From positions 1-41,280 of the forward strand of contig JAJXWR010000011.1 in the NCBI GenBank assembly GCA_021781515.1: a stretch of 41,280 nucleotides of DNA. The letters are read 5' to 3'. The notes under the pieces were generated by a model. That model was not told where the DNA came from. It ran no database searches and saw nothing but the letters and a program-made list of their open reading frames with translations. The position numbers and the translations under genes are program-made. The stretch comes from Pseudomonadota bacterium. Its GTDB lineage: Bacteria > Pseudomonadota > Gammaproteobacteria > Pseudomonadales > Moraxellaceae. This document shows, piece after piece, positions 12,459 through 35,657 of this stretch. Every line of letters starts with the position of its first letter. Position 1 is the stretch's first letter.

Positions 12459-13511
12459 ATGAATAGATTGCCAAGGGTTGGGGCTCCCCGAGTAATTCTG
12501 GGTGTTTTGGGTGTTATAAGCATCGTGTTATCTGGCAGCATGCTGGATGCCTGTTCTCCGGTTAAATTAGGTGGAGAAATGGCTATTCAATTTACTGAAG
12601 ATCAGACCATGCCGTTTATGCTACGGGATGGTGATGTAGACATGGCCTGTGCTTCTGCGGAAACACTGAATCCGGTACTACGTTCCATTGCAGTCACGGG
12701 GGCGGATCCGGATCAGTTAGCGGCAGTGATCTATGTGACGGCAGCCTATTGCTCAGAGCAACGTTCATTTAATGCGGAATTGCGCTATCTTCGGGCACAG
12801 CACGATAATCTGATCACCGATGCGGAAGATGCGCGGATTGAGCAAAAACGTCAGGCCGCAGTGGGTGCTCGCCGGGAACTGGCCGGTTATAATTCGGCCA
12901 ACCGTTATTTCAAGAAAAAATTTGGTGTGGAAGTCGGTGATCGCTGCCCGTCGTTTCACCGTTCCTTTGATGAATTGTCCTTCATGTTGGGAATGATTGC
13001 CGGATTACAGGCACTCTCGGACGATATTAATTCGGAAAACCAGGTCGGCGTGCCGATGGACATTGCCGCTAAAGTGGAAAGGAGTATGGGCTGCCTGGAT
13101 AATGACCGCTGGTGGGGGGTTCCCACGGCGGTGCGTGCAGCGATATGGAATATGTTGCCGGGCGCAACCCCTCCGGGCATGGATCCGTGGCATTCGCTGA
13201 TTCAGTCCACTAAAATTGGTCATGACAAGGGAGTACGGCTGGCTTACGCCTTATATGCCATTTCGGCGCAATCCAAAGGCGATGATGGTCGCTTGCGCGA
13301 TGCCTTGCGTTTGTGGTCTAAAGATACGAAAAACTTTATGGTTGATCCGAATTATCGGATTTTTGATGCGATTGCTCAGGTGCAGATTCAGAATATATCC
13401 GATCGTTACTGGACGGAACACACCGGTTCCAGAACGCCCATCGGTGGCATTGGTTCATTCTGGGATGACAAGACCGATACGGGGCCGTCTCTGAATCTTG
13501 ATAATCTTTAA
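12459..13511 (+). CDS. Probable TatT-like lipoprotein (TRAP T-component type)
   Basis: A 350-residue exported protein. Residues 12-31 are hydrophobic and end in LDA-C, a lipobox with an unusual Asp at -2, so Cys32 is the likely lipidated residue. The mature part begins CSPVKLGGE and looks mostly helical, with segments reminiscent of the TPR-like TatT family (periplasmic lipoproteins partnering with DctP-type binding proteins in Treponema): a run of DARIEQKRQ and the late block GVRLAYALYAISAQSKGD followed by ALRLWSKDTKN. GAGGAA precedes the ATG. The next gene, 48 nt away, encodes an AdeT/DctP-like binding protein, which is the main reason for the call. No DctQ/DctM membrane genes are nearby. 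Family assignment from memory of motifs; unsure. Confidence 0.5.
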   Translation: MNRLPRVGAPRVILGVLGVISIVLSGSMLDACSPVKLGGEMAIQFTEDQTMPFMLRDGDVDMACASAETLNPVLRSIAVTGADPDQLAAVIYVTAAYCSEQRSFNAELRYLRAQHDNLITDAEDARIEQKRQAAVGARRELAGYNSANRYFKKKFGVEVGDRCPSFHRSFDELSFMLGMIAGLQALSDDINSENQVGVPMDIAAKVERSMGCLDNDRWWGVPTAVRAAIWNMLPGATPPGMDPWHSLIQSTKIGHDKGVRLAYALYAISAQSKGDDGRLRDALRLWSKDTKNFMVDPNYRIFDAIAQVQIQNISDRYWTEHTGSRTPIGGIGSFWDDKTDTGPSLNLDNL

Positions 13512-13559: not shown

Positions 13560-14564
13560 ATGCAGTCTCTACAAAAAAAATGGGCCGCTCTGGCGTTGGC
13601 GGGTGGGTTGCTGTGTTCGGTTCCTGCGATGGCAGGACAGAAATTATGTGTATTTGATGTGCTGGGGGCCCAGGGCGACATCTATTCACAGATGAAGGAT
13701 TATCAGCTGGCTGCGCATCAATGGGGAGCGGATATTGAGCTGAAACCCTATACTGATGAACGGATTGCCTCTGAAGATTTCAAGGCTGGTCAATGTGATG
13801 GTGCTGTGTTGACAGGTTTGAGAGCGCGGCAGTTTAACAAATTCTCTGGCAGTATCGACTCCATTGGTGCGGTTACCAGTTATGCACAGTTGCAGGAAGT
13901 CATTAACACCATGGCTTCCCCAAAACTGGACAAGTACATGGAATCCAATGGATTTGAAGTTGCTGGTATTTCGCCGATGGGTGCGGCTTACCTGTTTGTG
14001 AATGACCGTTCAATTAATAATGTGGGGAAACTGTCGGGCAAGAAAATTGCCGTTCTGGACTACGATAAGGCACAAGCCAAAATGGTACAGAAGGTTGGTG
14101 CACAGCCGGTCTCTTCGGACATCACTAATTTTGCCGGTAAATTCAATAACGGTTCGGTAGATATTATTGCCGCACCAGCAGCGGCCTTTAAACCACTGGA
14201 ACTCTATAAAGGGTTAGGAACCCGTGGAGCGATTGTGCGTTTTCCGCTGGCGCAGTTGACGGTGCAGATTGTTATCCGTGCTGACAAGTTCCCGGCAGGT
14301 TATGGTGAGAAATCCCGTGCCTATGTGGCTAGTCGCTTTAATAAGGCCATGGGTGTGATTAAACAGGCTGAAAACAGCATTGATCCGAAGTACTGGATGG
14401 ATCTGCCACAGGCGGACAAGGACAAGTACATGATACTGTTACGTGACTCACGTATTTCGTTGACGCATGATGGTATTTATGATGCAAAATCCATGTCGCT
14501 GCTGAAGAAAGTGCGTTGTCATGACAATGCAGCCGCTGCAGAGTGTGCGGATACGCTGGAATAA
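13560..14564 (+). CDS. AdeT/DctP-like periplasmic solute-binding protein
   Basis: A 334-residue protein with a clear Sec signal peptide (residues 1-25, cleaved after PAMA). The mature sequence begins GQKLCVFDVLGAQGD and has the alternating pattern of a two-lobe binding protein, including a later hinge-like segment NVGKLSGKKIAVLDYDKAQ. It resembles the proteins named AdeT in Acinetobacter, once called RND pump parts but more like TRAP DctP binding proteins. AAGGAG sits 7 nt before the ATG. It is cotranscribed with the TatT-like lipoprotein and followed by a strong terminator, so the transcript is a two-gene unit. The ligand is unknown. A C-terminal Cys pair (CHDNAAAAEC) may form a disulfide. 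Confidence 0.65.
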   Translation: MQSLQKKWAALALAGGLLCSVPAMAGQKLCVFDVLGAQGDIYSQMKDYQLAAHQWGADIELKPYTDERIASEDFKAGQCDGAVLTGLRARQFNKFSGSIDSIGAVTSYAQLQEVINTMASPKLDKYMESNGFEVAGISPMGAAYLFVNDRSINNVGKLSGKKIAVLDYDKAQAKMVQKVGAQPVSSDITNFAGKFNNGSVDIIAAPAAAFKPLELYKGLGTRGAIVRFPLAQLTVQIVIRADKFPAGYGEKSRAYVASRFNKAMGVIKQAENSIDPKYWMDLPQADKDKYMILLRDSRISLTHDGIYDAKSMSLLKKVRCHDNAAAAECADTLE

Positions 14565-31976: not shown

Positions 31977-33002
31977 TCAGTGGTGGGTGGGAGCCGTACT
32001 GCCAGCAAACAATACGCTAGCCAACTGTCGGGATCGCTCATGATCGGCCTTGGTTTTTTTAGCCAGGTCGGCTGCACTGCAATTGACATTGTTCAGTTGT
32101 TGCAGGTTGATTTCCCCACTGGCATTGGCTTCTGCATAGCGACTGCAATCTTCTTCCGCAGAAATACGGTGAATCAGGGATTTGTATTCCGTCCAGGCGC
32201 TGGCTATTTTTTTCTGCTCTTCAAGACAGGTTTGCGCATTCATGCAGATACTCACCAGAAAACGTCCACGAAAGCCTGCACGACTCGGTTGATCCAGTGG
32301 CTTGGCCTGTAGTTGTTGCAGATCGCTCTGGCTCAGGTTATAGACTTGATTGGGCTGATCATCCTCAATGGATCCAGACTGCATGCGGCTGGTTATCCCA
32401 TAACAGAGCTTGTCGCGCATCGGCATGACATACAGATGCGTCACATCATTCTGCACCGGCCCTAGGTAAATACCTAAGTCTTCTTTAACGGGCAGACTGG
32501 TATAGCTAATCAGACTGAAGCGTCCAGATTGACCTTCAAACGCTAGTGGACAGTCTTTGGTGTCAAAATTATCTTCACGCAGTGTTCCCAACAGATCGCC
32601 AAAGAAAGCATTCCAGCGGTGATCACTTAACCGCAGCAGTTCATTACGTTCTTCAATTTTAGACAACCCTTTACGGTACAGGCTGTCTGCCGGATCGCCA
32701 TGAACCGCAGCGGCGGCATGCTGAATGGTTTCAGTGAGAACGGCACCGTCCGTACCAGGAAGATGGCAGGTAGCGACCGCATTAAATTTATCCTGCTCAA
32801 TACGGTCACATTCCGTACTGTATTTTTGTTGCACCAAGCACAGACGGTTACCGTGTTCCGTTTCCTGAACCTCCTGCAGGCAGTCACTCCATGCCGGTTT
32901 CAGAAAAACCAGTCCAGCAAAAAGGCAACCCAACAAGGGCAATTCTTTGCCTGAAAACAGATTGCCTGAAAACAGAGTCTGTATTGTCCTCGGAATTGGC
33001 AT
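31977..33002 (-). CDS. Cysteine-rich exported protein of unknown function
   Basis: I do not recognise the family. It has 341 residues: a positively charged start, a hydrophobic stretch (about residues 20-38, ending LKPAWS) that is a probable signal peptide, then a mature part with ten cysteines spread along it, enough for five disulfides. Several Cys sit in NRLCLV, STECDR, VATCHL, TKDCPL, DKLCYG, VSICMN and EEDCSRY contexts. There are no further membrane segments. It begins with ATG after GGTGAGG and ends 20 nt before xseB, so it probably leads the xseB-ispA-dxs transcript. A 15-bp duplication sits in its signal-peptide region. Confidence 0.7.
   Translation of the reverse strand: MPIPRTIQTLFSGNLFSGKELPLLGCLFAGLVFLKPAWSDCLQEVQETEHGNRLCLVQQKYSTECDRIEQDKFNAVATCHLPGTDGAVLTETIQHAAAAVHGDPADSLYRKGLSKIEERNELLRLSDHRWNAFFGDLLGTLREDNFDTKDCPLAFEGQSGRFSLISYTSLPVKEDLGIYLGPVQNDVTHLYVMPMRDKLCYGITSRMQSGSIEDDQPNQVYNLSQSDLQQLQAKPLDQPSRAGFRGRFLVSICMNAQTCLEEQKKIASAWTEYKSLIHRISAEEDCSRYAEANASGEINLQQLNNVNCSAADLAKKTKADHERSRQLASVLFAGSTAPTHH
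32947..32976. repeat. 15-bp tandem duplication inside the exported protein gene
   Basis: TTGCCTGAAAACAGA (plus strand) is present twice in a row, 32947-32961 and 32962-32976. Being 15 bp it keeps the frame and repeats the residues LFSGN/LFSGK just before the signal-peptide core of the minus-strand gene. Confidence 0.9.
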
Positions 33003-33626: not shown

Positions 33627-33914
33627 GTGTTTGCAATTTAATTATTCTATTCGGCCTGAAATGGCGTCGCCGAAGCGACGGCATAGACAAGATTGCCTGT
33701 TCTCAGGGTCGTATGCAAGATCTGATGCTTTCCTTAGTGTAGTGATCTTCTGCCGAAAGACAGAAGATCACTACCAACTTACATGAATACGAGTTGACAC
33801 CCCGGAGGATGAAACTTATCAAGTGACTGTTGTCGCTGTTAGCATACATCAGAAATTATTGCGGGATTGTTCCATTTTTATGTGACTTTCACGGTAATTT
33901 ATTAAATGGACAGA
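33627..33914. other. Gene-free gap with two hairpins
   Basis: Between the rpsT promoter and the lipoprotein stop there is no gene I can support. It holds two strong stem-loops: ATGGCGTCGC (33661-33670) / GCGACGGCAT (33675-33684), nine of ten paired with a CGAA loop, and the perfect 14-bp GTAGTGATCTTCTG (33739-33752) / CAGAAGATCACTAC (33761-33774) with a CCGAAAGA loop. On the plus strand a promoter-like TTGACA (33794-33799), 17 bp, TATCAA (33817-33822) points into the lipoprotein gene's 3' end. Confidence 0.6.
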
Positions 33915-35609
33915 TTATTGGCTGCTCAGAAGTACGCCATTTCCCACGGTCAGCAGTGAACCATTAAAACTGACTATGTCACTCAACTGGGTGGTGGTAT
34001 TCGTCAATAGAGTGTTCCAAGTACTTCCTGAACTGGAGATGAGTGCATCACTGGCGGGGCCAACGGCGACAAAGTGCTGTCCGTCCCAGGCCACACTGGT
34101 CAGCGCGGCACTGGTAAGAGGCAAGGTCGCCTGAGTCCAGTGGATTTTGTCGGTGGAGTACAAAATCACTCCCTGACTCCCGTTGCTGGCGGTGGCTACA
34201 TCAGCACTGGCAGAAGCGGCGAGGCCAGTGATGCTGTATCCGGCGGTCAGGCCGCTCGTCAATGTGGACCAGGTAGTCCCGTCTGTGGAACTTAGTAACG
34301 TTGCATTGTCACCGCCTGCTACGTATTGCGTTCCGTCCCAGATCACTGTACGTAAGGAGTTACTGGTTCCTGAGGCTGGATTTATCCAGTTACTGAAGTC
34401 CGTAGACTCTGCGATGTTGCCGTTTAAGCCTACAAAGACCAGATTTCCAGGGGTGCTCGCCCCGGCGGCAGCGTAGTAGGTGCCTCCAGTTCCAATGTTA
34501 GTCCATGGGGTACTACCGGTATCATCTGCATGTGTATAAAAATTTTTATTGCTGCAAAGCAGAACAAACTTCTTGAAGTTGCCAATCCAGAACACCCCAT
34601 TGATCGATGGACAGACGCCTTGCACTGAATACCAGTGATTGCTGTCGGCTGAGAAAAAAGTATATCCAGAACTTCCTGCCAGCACGGCGTTGGCACTACT
34701 GGCCGCTACTCCGGTGAAGTTGGTGCTGCTGGAAGGGAAGCCGTTCAACGATTTAAGGTTGAGTGAGGTTGAAGAGGTTGAAGAGGTTGAAGAGGTTGAA
34801 GAGGTTGAAGAGGTTGAAGAGGTTGAAGAGGTTGAAGATGTTGAAGATGTTGAAGAGGTTGAAGAGGTTGAAGAGGTTGAAGAGGTTGAAGAGGTTGAAG
34901 AGGAAATCAAGGTGAATATATCTGTTTCATTGTTCTGATGCAGTATCAGTAAGGGGCCATTTACATAACCATTCTGAGTATAGGGGGTGGTGTTCCCGCA
35001 CGTGCTGGAATTGGTGGGTGTCAAGGAAATCGTATTGGCGCTGAATGTCCAGCCCCCTGTTTCATTACAGGCGGGAGAAGGTTGAGTATATTGATAGGTG
35101 GTACTGGATAAATTCAAAGTGAAATTTTGCGCTTTTACATCACTGGTCTGGCCATTGAGGATACGCTCCGCCATCAGCCAGTTTCCTGTTGCACTGCTTA
35201 AAGGATTTGACGTTTGTAGCTGCCAGGATCCTGTATGGGTGCTGGTGGAGAGGGTTAATGAGTTGCCTGACAGGGTGGTATTTTCCTGGTAGGTGGAAGT
35301 CGCATTACAGGTACTGGCGGCATCCGGGGAAAAACTTACAGCAGATGATGTACTGCTCCAAGTGCCAAATTCCATGCACACAATGTTCGTCGATGGATCT
35401 TCTTCATAGATACTATAGGCATAGGGCGTAAATTCGAGGTATACAGTATTTCCCTGCGCTGTGTTGGCACTCCATGTACCCAAGGGATTGATTCCTGCAC
35501 TGGAGTTATTGCTGGATCCCCCGCCACCACCACCACAGGCGCTTAGTATTATACTGAGGAAGCACAGGCAGAGTGCGGTGATGTTGCGTTTGTAGTGACT
35601 GTATAACAT
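33915..35609 (-). CDS. Surface-type lipoprotein with Ser/Thr repeat linker and beta-propeller-like C-terminus
   Basis: I do not recognise a named family. The 564 residues start with a lipoprotein signal (lipobox LSAC, Cys25) followed by six glycines and a Ser/Asn stretch. Residues ~40-130 and ~140-235 are two similar beta-rich modules, each opening G(T/N)W and each holding a Cys pair (VCMEFGTW...[15 protein letters not shown]...STCGNT). Residues 237-282 are the repeat SST from a 15-copy 9-bp array. Residues ~285-564 contain about seven repeats of ~41 residues, such as [19 protein letters not shown] and [19 protein letters not shown], suggesting a seven-bladed propeller. AAGGAG precedes the ATG. 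An FNR-type site lies upstream. Confidence 0.75.
34765..34899. repeat. 9-bp tandem array, 15 copies
   Basis: Fifteen consecutive copies of GAGGTTGAA on the plus strand; the ninth and tenth (34837-34854) are GATGTTGAA. On the coding (minus) strand each unit encodes Ser-Ser-Thr and the variants are synonymous (ACC to ACA). Because the unit is 9 bp, copy-number change would alter linker length without breaking the frame. Confidence 0.97.
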
Positions 35610-35657
35610 CAGTTAATCTCCTTGAATAATATGTGGTGAAGCGATGGCCTCGCTGCG

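Follow-up and report, generated by a model that had tools for sequence, protein, structure and literature searches.

Proteins of the Pfam family Lipocalin_4, such as BACUNI_01346 (4qrl), contain a barrel of about 95 residues. In the outer-membrane lipoprotein NlpE (2z4h) a lipocalin-like barrel lies next to the membrane anchor; NlpE combines this single barrel with a different second domain. Among propellers, those of the Ycf48/PSII_BNR type (PF14870; 5ojr, 2xbg) have a repeat motif similar to the one described below, and XusB, a Bacteroides lipoprotein, is presented in the available text of its report as a seven-bladed propeller that binds ferric enterobactin and works with the TonB-dependent transporter XusA (PMC13142918).

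Here we describe P0001, a predicted lipoprotein encoded in the window, that is, in the whole stretch of 41,280 nucleotides of contig JAJXWR010000011.1 (Moraxellaceae) that was analysed (Table 1). P0001 resembles the Lipocalin_4 proteins in the size of its predicted barrels; it differs in having two, one after the other, which stand at the base of a longer lipoprotein and each carry an invariant C-x22-C pair. It resembles NlpE in carrying a predicted barrel next to the anchor; unlike in NlpE, the second unit is another lipocalin-like barrel, which is followed by a stalk and a propeller. The Foldseek alignments listed with YCF48 in their title have 15-17% identity, and genomes of the family also encode Ycf48-like proteins (L007, PSII_BNR 78.5 bits). 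In contrast to these, P0001 is predicted to be lipidated, is stalked and fused to barrels, and neither it nor its paralogue P0002 matched PSII_BNR with the limit set at E 10, a limit at which the HMMER filters nevertheless drop most matches above E 0.1. XusB is a lipid-anchored seven-bladed propeller, as is predicted for P0001, and provides a precedent for a propeller as a surface binding head, whereas a double barrel and a repeat stalk are not described for XusB in the available text (PMC13142918). The Pfam and NCBIfam scans, which covered a part of the window ORFs, revealed no TonB receptor.

Both folds of P0001 are of known kinds; what is new is how they are arranged, the cysteine spacing that stays constant, and a base on which stalk and head are exchanged. 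This arrangement was not found described in the open-licence literature among the matches listed, as represented by titles, beginnings of abstracts and a few passages. We favour the reading that P0001 is an outer-membrane lipoprotein, an interchangeable platform for display whose binding head is the propeller, and consider it about equally likely to hold or to fail.

Table 1. Features of the P0001 locus (window positions)
Feature	Positions	Strand	Basis
Whole gene, P0001, 564-aa lipoprotein	33915..35609	minus	Open frame, ATG at 35609
Shine-Dalgarno-like AAGGAGA, 7 nt before the ATG	35617..35623	minus	Sequence
Predicted lipoprotein signal peptide, lipobox LSAC (lipidated Cys25), then Gly-rich CGGGGGGSS	35535..35609	minus	Sequence
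Module 1, residues 36-134, predicted lipocalin-like barrel, Cys78-Cys101	35208..35504	minus	AF2; VIA 4gzv Z 11.6; C-x22-C
Module 2, residues 135-236, predicted lipocalin-like barrel, Cys181-Cys204	34902..35207	minus	AF2; VIA 4qrl Z 12.8; C-x22-C
Stalk, 15 Ser-Ser-Thr units (residues 237-281), near-perfect 9-base tandem array, uncharged	34767..34901	minus	Repeat finding, sequence
Predicted seven-bladed beta-propeller, residues 285-564	33918..34757	minus	AF2, Foldseek, VIA, blade repeat test

The P0001 gene and its lipoprotein signal

The lipobox consensus is used to assign bacterial lipoproteins, and a Gly, rather than an Asp, at position +2 is compatible with outer-membrane sorting. In P0001 the lipobox was read by eye as LSA/C25 (residues 22-25) followed by six glycines, so that by this consensus P0001 is a putative bacterial lipoprotein; the preliminary description of this DNA had also pointed to a lipobox. 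Lipoprotein-type signals were likewise present in the two relatives presented below, P0002 (IAGC) and P0005 (LSAC). As the reading frame is open, and as the self-similarity of the modules, the Ser-Ser-Thr (SST) units and the similarity of the blades all hold, the observation first made on this DNA is confirmed as real.

A scan for promoters and terminators gave results at chance level. Just downstream of the gene lies a perfect 14-bp inverted repeat with an 8-nt loop (33739-33774), which has no T tract on either side and was not called as a terminator.

Two predicted tandem barrels with a constant cysteine spacing

The two N-terminal modules were aligned with each other and gave a score of 102, which none of 1000 shuffled sequences reached (mean 36.2, maximum 68). 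The cysteine pairs 78/101 and 181/204 have a spacing of 23 in both modules, which bears out the two similar modules of about 95 residues, each with a Cys pair, that had been proposed at first.

For residues 25-243, AlphaFold2 (AF2) predicted two consecutive barrels with a mean pLDDT of 73.8 and a pTM of 0.62, from a two-row alignment consisting of P0001 and one relative; two of the five models were poor (mean pLDDT 45.8 and 40.9). Both predicted barrels are antiparallel with about eight strands, eight in module 1 and nine in module 2. The search of this model with Foldseek gave no match under E 0.001: the first row was a sliding clamp with a poor alignment (TM 0.18), a Bacteroides lipocalin-like protein came second (probability 1.00), and sliding clamps made up the majority of the best 50 matches listed. 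With VIA-align 2, module 2 was superposed on 4qrl with a Z of 12.8 (2.3 Å over 96 residues), which was the best solved match, and module 1 on 4gzv with a Z of 11.6 (3.1 Å over 96 residues). Further VIA matches were other lipocalin-like proteins, including NlpE at a Z of 8.1 over 75 residues, near the level at which matches may be unspecific.

The Pfam profile Lipocalin_4 (PF13648, cut-off 22.4 bits) did not match P0001 with the limit at E 10, but it passed the cut-off in P0002 (26.0 bits) and in P0005 (36.6 bits), in two stretches of each. Because P0001 itself misses the profile while its homologues pass, its modules are best described as predicted lipocalin-like (calycin-type) barrels by homology and fold, and not as direct Pfam members. 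The label 'unknown' that these modules had carried is thereby superseded.

In the model, the first cysteine of each module is located early in a long strand, and the second one in the loop that follows the next strand. This placement, which is the same in both predicted modules, fits one putative disulphide staple per barrel.

A Ser-Ser-Thr stalk made of nine-base repeats

Between the double barrel and the propeller, Tandem Repeats Finder detected at 34756-34903 an array with a 9-base unit, 16.3 copies and 97% match, which had the top score (266) among the seven tandem-repeat rows of the window. At the protein level the array encodes 15 consecutive SST units, exactly the number of nine-base repeats counted initially. 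Thirteen of the 15 units are encoded by TCT-TCA-ACC and two adjacent ones by TCT-TCA-ACA, whereas the Ser codon used most in the rest of the gene is AGT; this near-uniformity of the stalk codons points to an origin of the array by duplication at the DNA level. The preliminary description also proposed that the stalk varies in length between strains and is possibly O-glycosylated. In the collections searched, the gene was found in no second strain. The profile of the dedicated O-oligosaccharyltransferase PglL_A (PF15864) had no match in the genome that carries P0001, and the control was likewise silent.

A predicted seven-bladed propeller head

Seven blade segments, delimited by eye, were distinguished in the C-terminal part of P0001. 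Compared in pairs, they had a mean score of 29.9, as against 20.8 (sd 1.0) for shuffled segments and a maximum of 23.6 in 200 shuffles, that is, 9 standard deviations above the shuffles. Blades 1 and 2 were divergent. Of the proposal of about seven repeats of some 41 residues, the number stood and the length needs a small correction: with these boundaries six repeats measure 39-44 residues and the C-terminal one just 30.

AF2 modelled residues 279-564 with a pLDDT of 80.7 and a pTM of 0.83. The input was alignment A9, which includes five viral-contig propellers and in which some rows are out of step by a blade; two of the seven viral-contig propellers were set aside, one (L046) as a repeat of L045 and one (L040) as too repetitive, and alignments A5, A6 and A8 were left out because MAFFT had slipped whole blades. 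Separately, the viral contig of L040 carries a 1131-aa frame (L040:3-3395) with more than 12 near-identical blade-like repeats of about 40 residues.

In the model of P0001 seven blades were counted from the strands. The last blade is three-stranded, and the strand just after the stalk, which has a pLDDT under 50, probably completes this blade and closes the ring. Foldseek ranked first a seven-bladed propeller of designed sequence (E 1.7e-10, TM 0.78) and third Ycf48 (5ojr; E 2e-10, TM 0.70). VIA superposed the model on virginiamycin B lyase with a Z of 31.1 (2.2 Å over 271 residues, spanning model positions 1-286). Structure prediction, Foldseek and VIA support a closed seven-bladed ring for residues 285-564, as the preliminary description had suggested from the repeats. 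A fold in common with known propellers indicates no function.

Relatives keep the base and exchange stalk and head

Two relatives share the double module. First, P0002 is a 768-aa paralogue encoded in the same genome on contig C1, with 27% identity to P0001 residues 1-223 (E 5e-22, BLASTP comparison of the two sequences). In place of the SST stalk it has two stretches matching fn3 (24.5 bits, slightly short of the cut-off of 25), and its C-terminal propeller, in which seven blades were counted by eye, has 152 residues aligned to P0001 at 38% identity. Second, P0005 is a 384-aa protein from genome G223, which belongs to another genus of the family (contig JAJZHK010000080.1, MAG LL7.bin26; P0005 at L023/L039:4386-5537). 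It consists of CGGGGGGS, the double module and a C-terminus of about 140 residues with two Cys, for which neither Pfam nor sequence searches of the PDB gave a match and which is possibly a further type of head. Thus the whole stalk is exchanged in P0002 and exchanged or missing in P0005, and the double barrel is the sole part common to the three proteins: different C-terminal parts are exchanged on one base.

Within this base, the C-x22-C pair is kept in all six modules, each of which starts with C-x-E-x-G-[TG]-[WY]; the residues invariant across the six are W, C, E, G, P, S and C. Searches of NCBIfam gave nothing near the cut-off for P0001, and P0002 and P0005 had no match there at E 0.001. 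In PHROGs, P0001 had no match, and the best one for P0002 was a family of tail proteins, which aligned with the FN3-like stretch (residues 243-338). Sequence searches of the PDB returned low-complexity or chance-level matches, or none.

That the double barrel is all the three proteins share could also mean that the tandem barrels are the working part of a cargo carrier or inhibitor, which would bind a small hydrophobic ligand or a protease, with the C-terminal parts as accessories. Structural matches to potempin E (8ehc, Z 9.7), which reportedly binds a protease, and to other bacterial lipocalin-like proteins would agree with such a role, as would a weak match of P0002 to Inh. However, the Inh match (17.7 bits) is below its cut-off of 25, the invariant residues look structural, and a shared position near the membrane suits a base equally well. 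We consider a cargo or inhibitor function improbable, and retain the display platform as the preferred reading.

Composition and membrane location

The composition of 33 window ORFs chosen for comparison was computed after removal of the first 25 residues of each. Mature P0001 has 1.5% Lys+Arg, the lowest value (the next is 5.1%), and 35.1% Ser+Thr, the highest. Its relatives have similarly few basic residues (2.6% in P0002 and 1.1% in P0005), compared with 12.3% in an AdeT-like protein, 10.1% in the 341-aa neighbour, 7.7% in a glycine-zipper protein, 4.2-5.6% in three Ycf48-like proteins of the family and 4.7% in a 390-aa protein on the P0002 contig, all of them presumed to be exported. A depletion of Lys and Arg of this degree is typical of extracellular proteins. 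The composition therefore favours exposure outside the cell, as a hint and not as a proof.

Routes to the surface were searched for in the genome itself. It encodes a type II secretin (529.6 bits, cut-off 351.35), which favours surface display; the type II secretion machine is reported, in the available text of PMC7857515, to export the lipoprotein PulA. SlipAM (PF04575), the Slam partner, was silent in this genome (0 of 1), as it was in the controls (0 of 14 genomes).

The opposite orientation deserves consideration, in which P0001 would form a bridge within the periplasm. The available text of PMC7521688 argues for a periplasmic location of the lipocalin-like lipoproteins of dual-membrane bacteria, which speaks against surface display of P0001, and two structural matches of the modules point the same way: the N-terminal domain of NlpE, at the near-unspecific level given above, and TP0751 (5jk2, Z 9.2), which combines a disordered region and a lipocalin in one lipoprotein. 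Against such a bridge, all three proteins are poor in Lys and Arg and rich in Ser and Thr, unlike the comparison proteins, and no conserved gene for an inner-membrane partner was seen nearby. The exchange of stalk and head between relatives also counts against it, because a fixed partner would not favour such exchange. We regard a periplasmic bridge as possible but rather unlikely, and surface display of P0001 as plausible.

Distribution and genomic place

The double module is rare: it was found in 2 of 348 genomes of the family. In the order sample 2 of 390 genomes matched and in the class sample 4 of 369, the own genome included in both. The other matches were weak (E 6.9e-4 for G459, and between 5e-5 and 7e-4 for G722, G910 and G1067) and were taken for chance. 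Lipocalin_4 exceeded its cut-off in G111 and in G122 (in G122 solely with neighbours in frame). None of the six matched frames has the full C-x-E-x-G-x-[WY] motif and two of them (G459 and G910) have C-x22-C; these two contain stops and resemble other genes read in antisense. The closest call was the G459 frame, which starts with C-x-E-x-G and might conceivably be a decayed relative. The proteins in G111 and G122 (L049 and L050) are single short secreted lipocalin-like proteins of the family that lack the C-x22-C pair.

In named genomes, none of the 19 stretches matched by P0001 was confirmed, and with the double-module alignment A3 one of 26 stretches was, namely L039, which is the same contig as that of G223. 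With whole P0001 as the query, 7 of 38 near genomes matched, including the own one, and the six other matches, of which G029 was the best (E 1.3e-13), were confined to residues 352-563 in the propeller part. The genus is represented by two more genomes, drafts with completeness of 94% and 91%, in which the modules had no match. In viral contigs the modules were found in 0 of 4 and, with alignment A2, in 0 of 56; blades of the paralogue P0002 were found in 7 of 20, as propellers in otherwise unrelated ORFs. Plasmids gave no match to P0001 or P0005, and phages none to P0001.

MurJ was located in six relatives, and its surroundings were compared in G001, G004, G005 and G006 (it is also present in G002 and G003). 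The upstream side of MurJ is occupied by plsC in G001, G004 and G006 and by rpsT in G005 (gene names by eye), with a further lipoprotein gene in between in G004. As other genes occupy this side in the four relatives read, the place of the P0001 gene differs between relatives. The gene in G004 (L027:4146-5576) is lipoprotein-like and has Gly/Asp-rich repeats of about 38 residues; the window genome also has a lipoprotein gene there, and the region near MurJ is perhaps a site where lipoprotein genes come and go. No ligand, partner or operon was found, and by eye the window and the P0002 contig have no neighbour in common.

Elsewhere in the window, the neighbouring 341-aa ORF (31977-33002) has a signal-peptide-like start, many Cys and nothing over the Pfam or NCBIfam cut-offs, and near its start a 15-base unit is repeated exactly twice (32947-32976). 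A 350-aa ORF (12459-13511), likewise with no family match over cut-off in Pfam and NCBIfam, adjoins the gene of the AdeT-like solute-binding protein (13560-14564, PF19582 386 bits).

A gene this rare could be a lineage-specific orphan, retained by chance and with no selected role. Almost none of the relatives searched, and neither of the remaining genomes of the genus, has the double module, and P0001 has no match in plasmids and phages, as would be expected of such a gene. The frame is nevertheless intact and preceded by a ribosome-binding site, the predicted folds are complete, and there are a paralogue and a cross-genus relative, the C-x22-C pair being conserved throughout the six modules; all of this speaks against an orphan without a role. 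We judge chance retention very improbable.

A proposed display platform

If the display platform, our preferred reading, is right, the Sec and lipoprotein pathways would acylate Cys25, and two disulphide-stapled lipocalin-like barrels would form a rigid base beside the outer membrane. An uncharged Ser/Thr stalk of about 48 residues would lift the propeller, and slippage might change the stalk length in steps of three residues. The face or the rim of the propeller would then bind a ligand or a partner protein. Relatives would keep the anchor and the double barrel and replace either the stalk by FN3-like domains, or stalk and head together by another C-terminal part.

Somewhat more tentatively, the three proteins may represent a small, rare family in which a disulphide-stapled double lipocalin is the universal holder, while the spacer (SST, a pair of FN3-like domains, or none) and the head (a propeller or an unrecognised domain) are exchanged, giving a plug-and-play surface display with a reach tunable by repeat number. 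If this is right, it adds a domain arrangement to those described, in which various lipoprotein heads reuse one base, a pair of small beta-barrels. The natural replacement of SST repeats by FN3-like domains would offer a clean test of how much stalk is needed by a lipoprotein head, and the double barrel would be a candidate scaffold for surface display in strains used in the laboratory.
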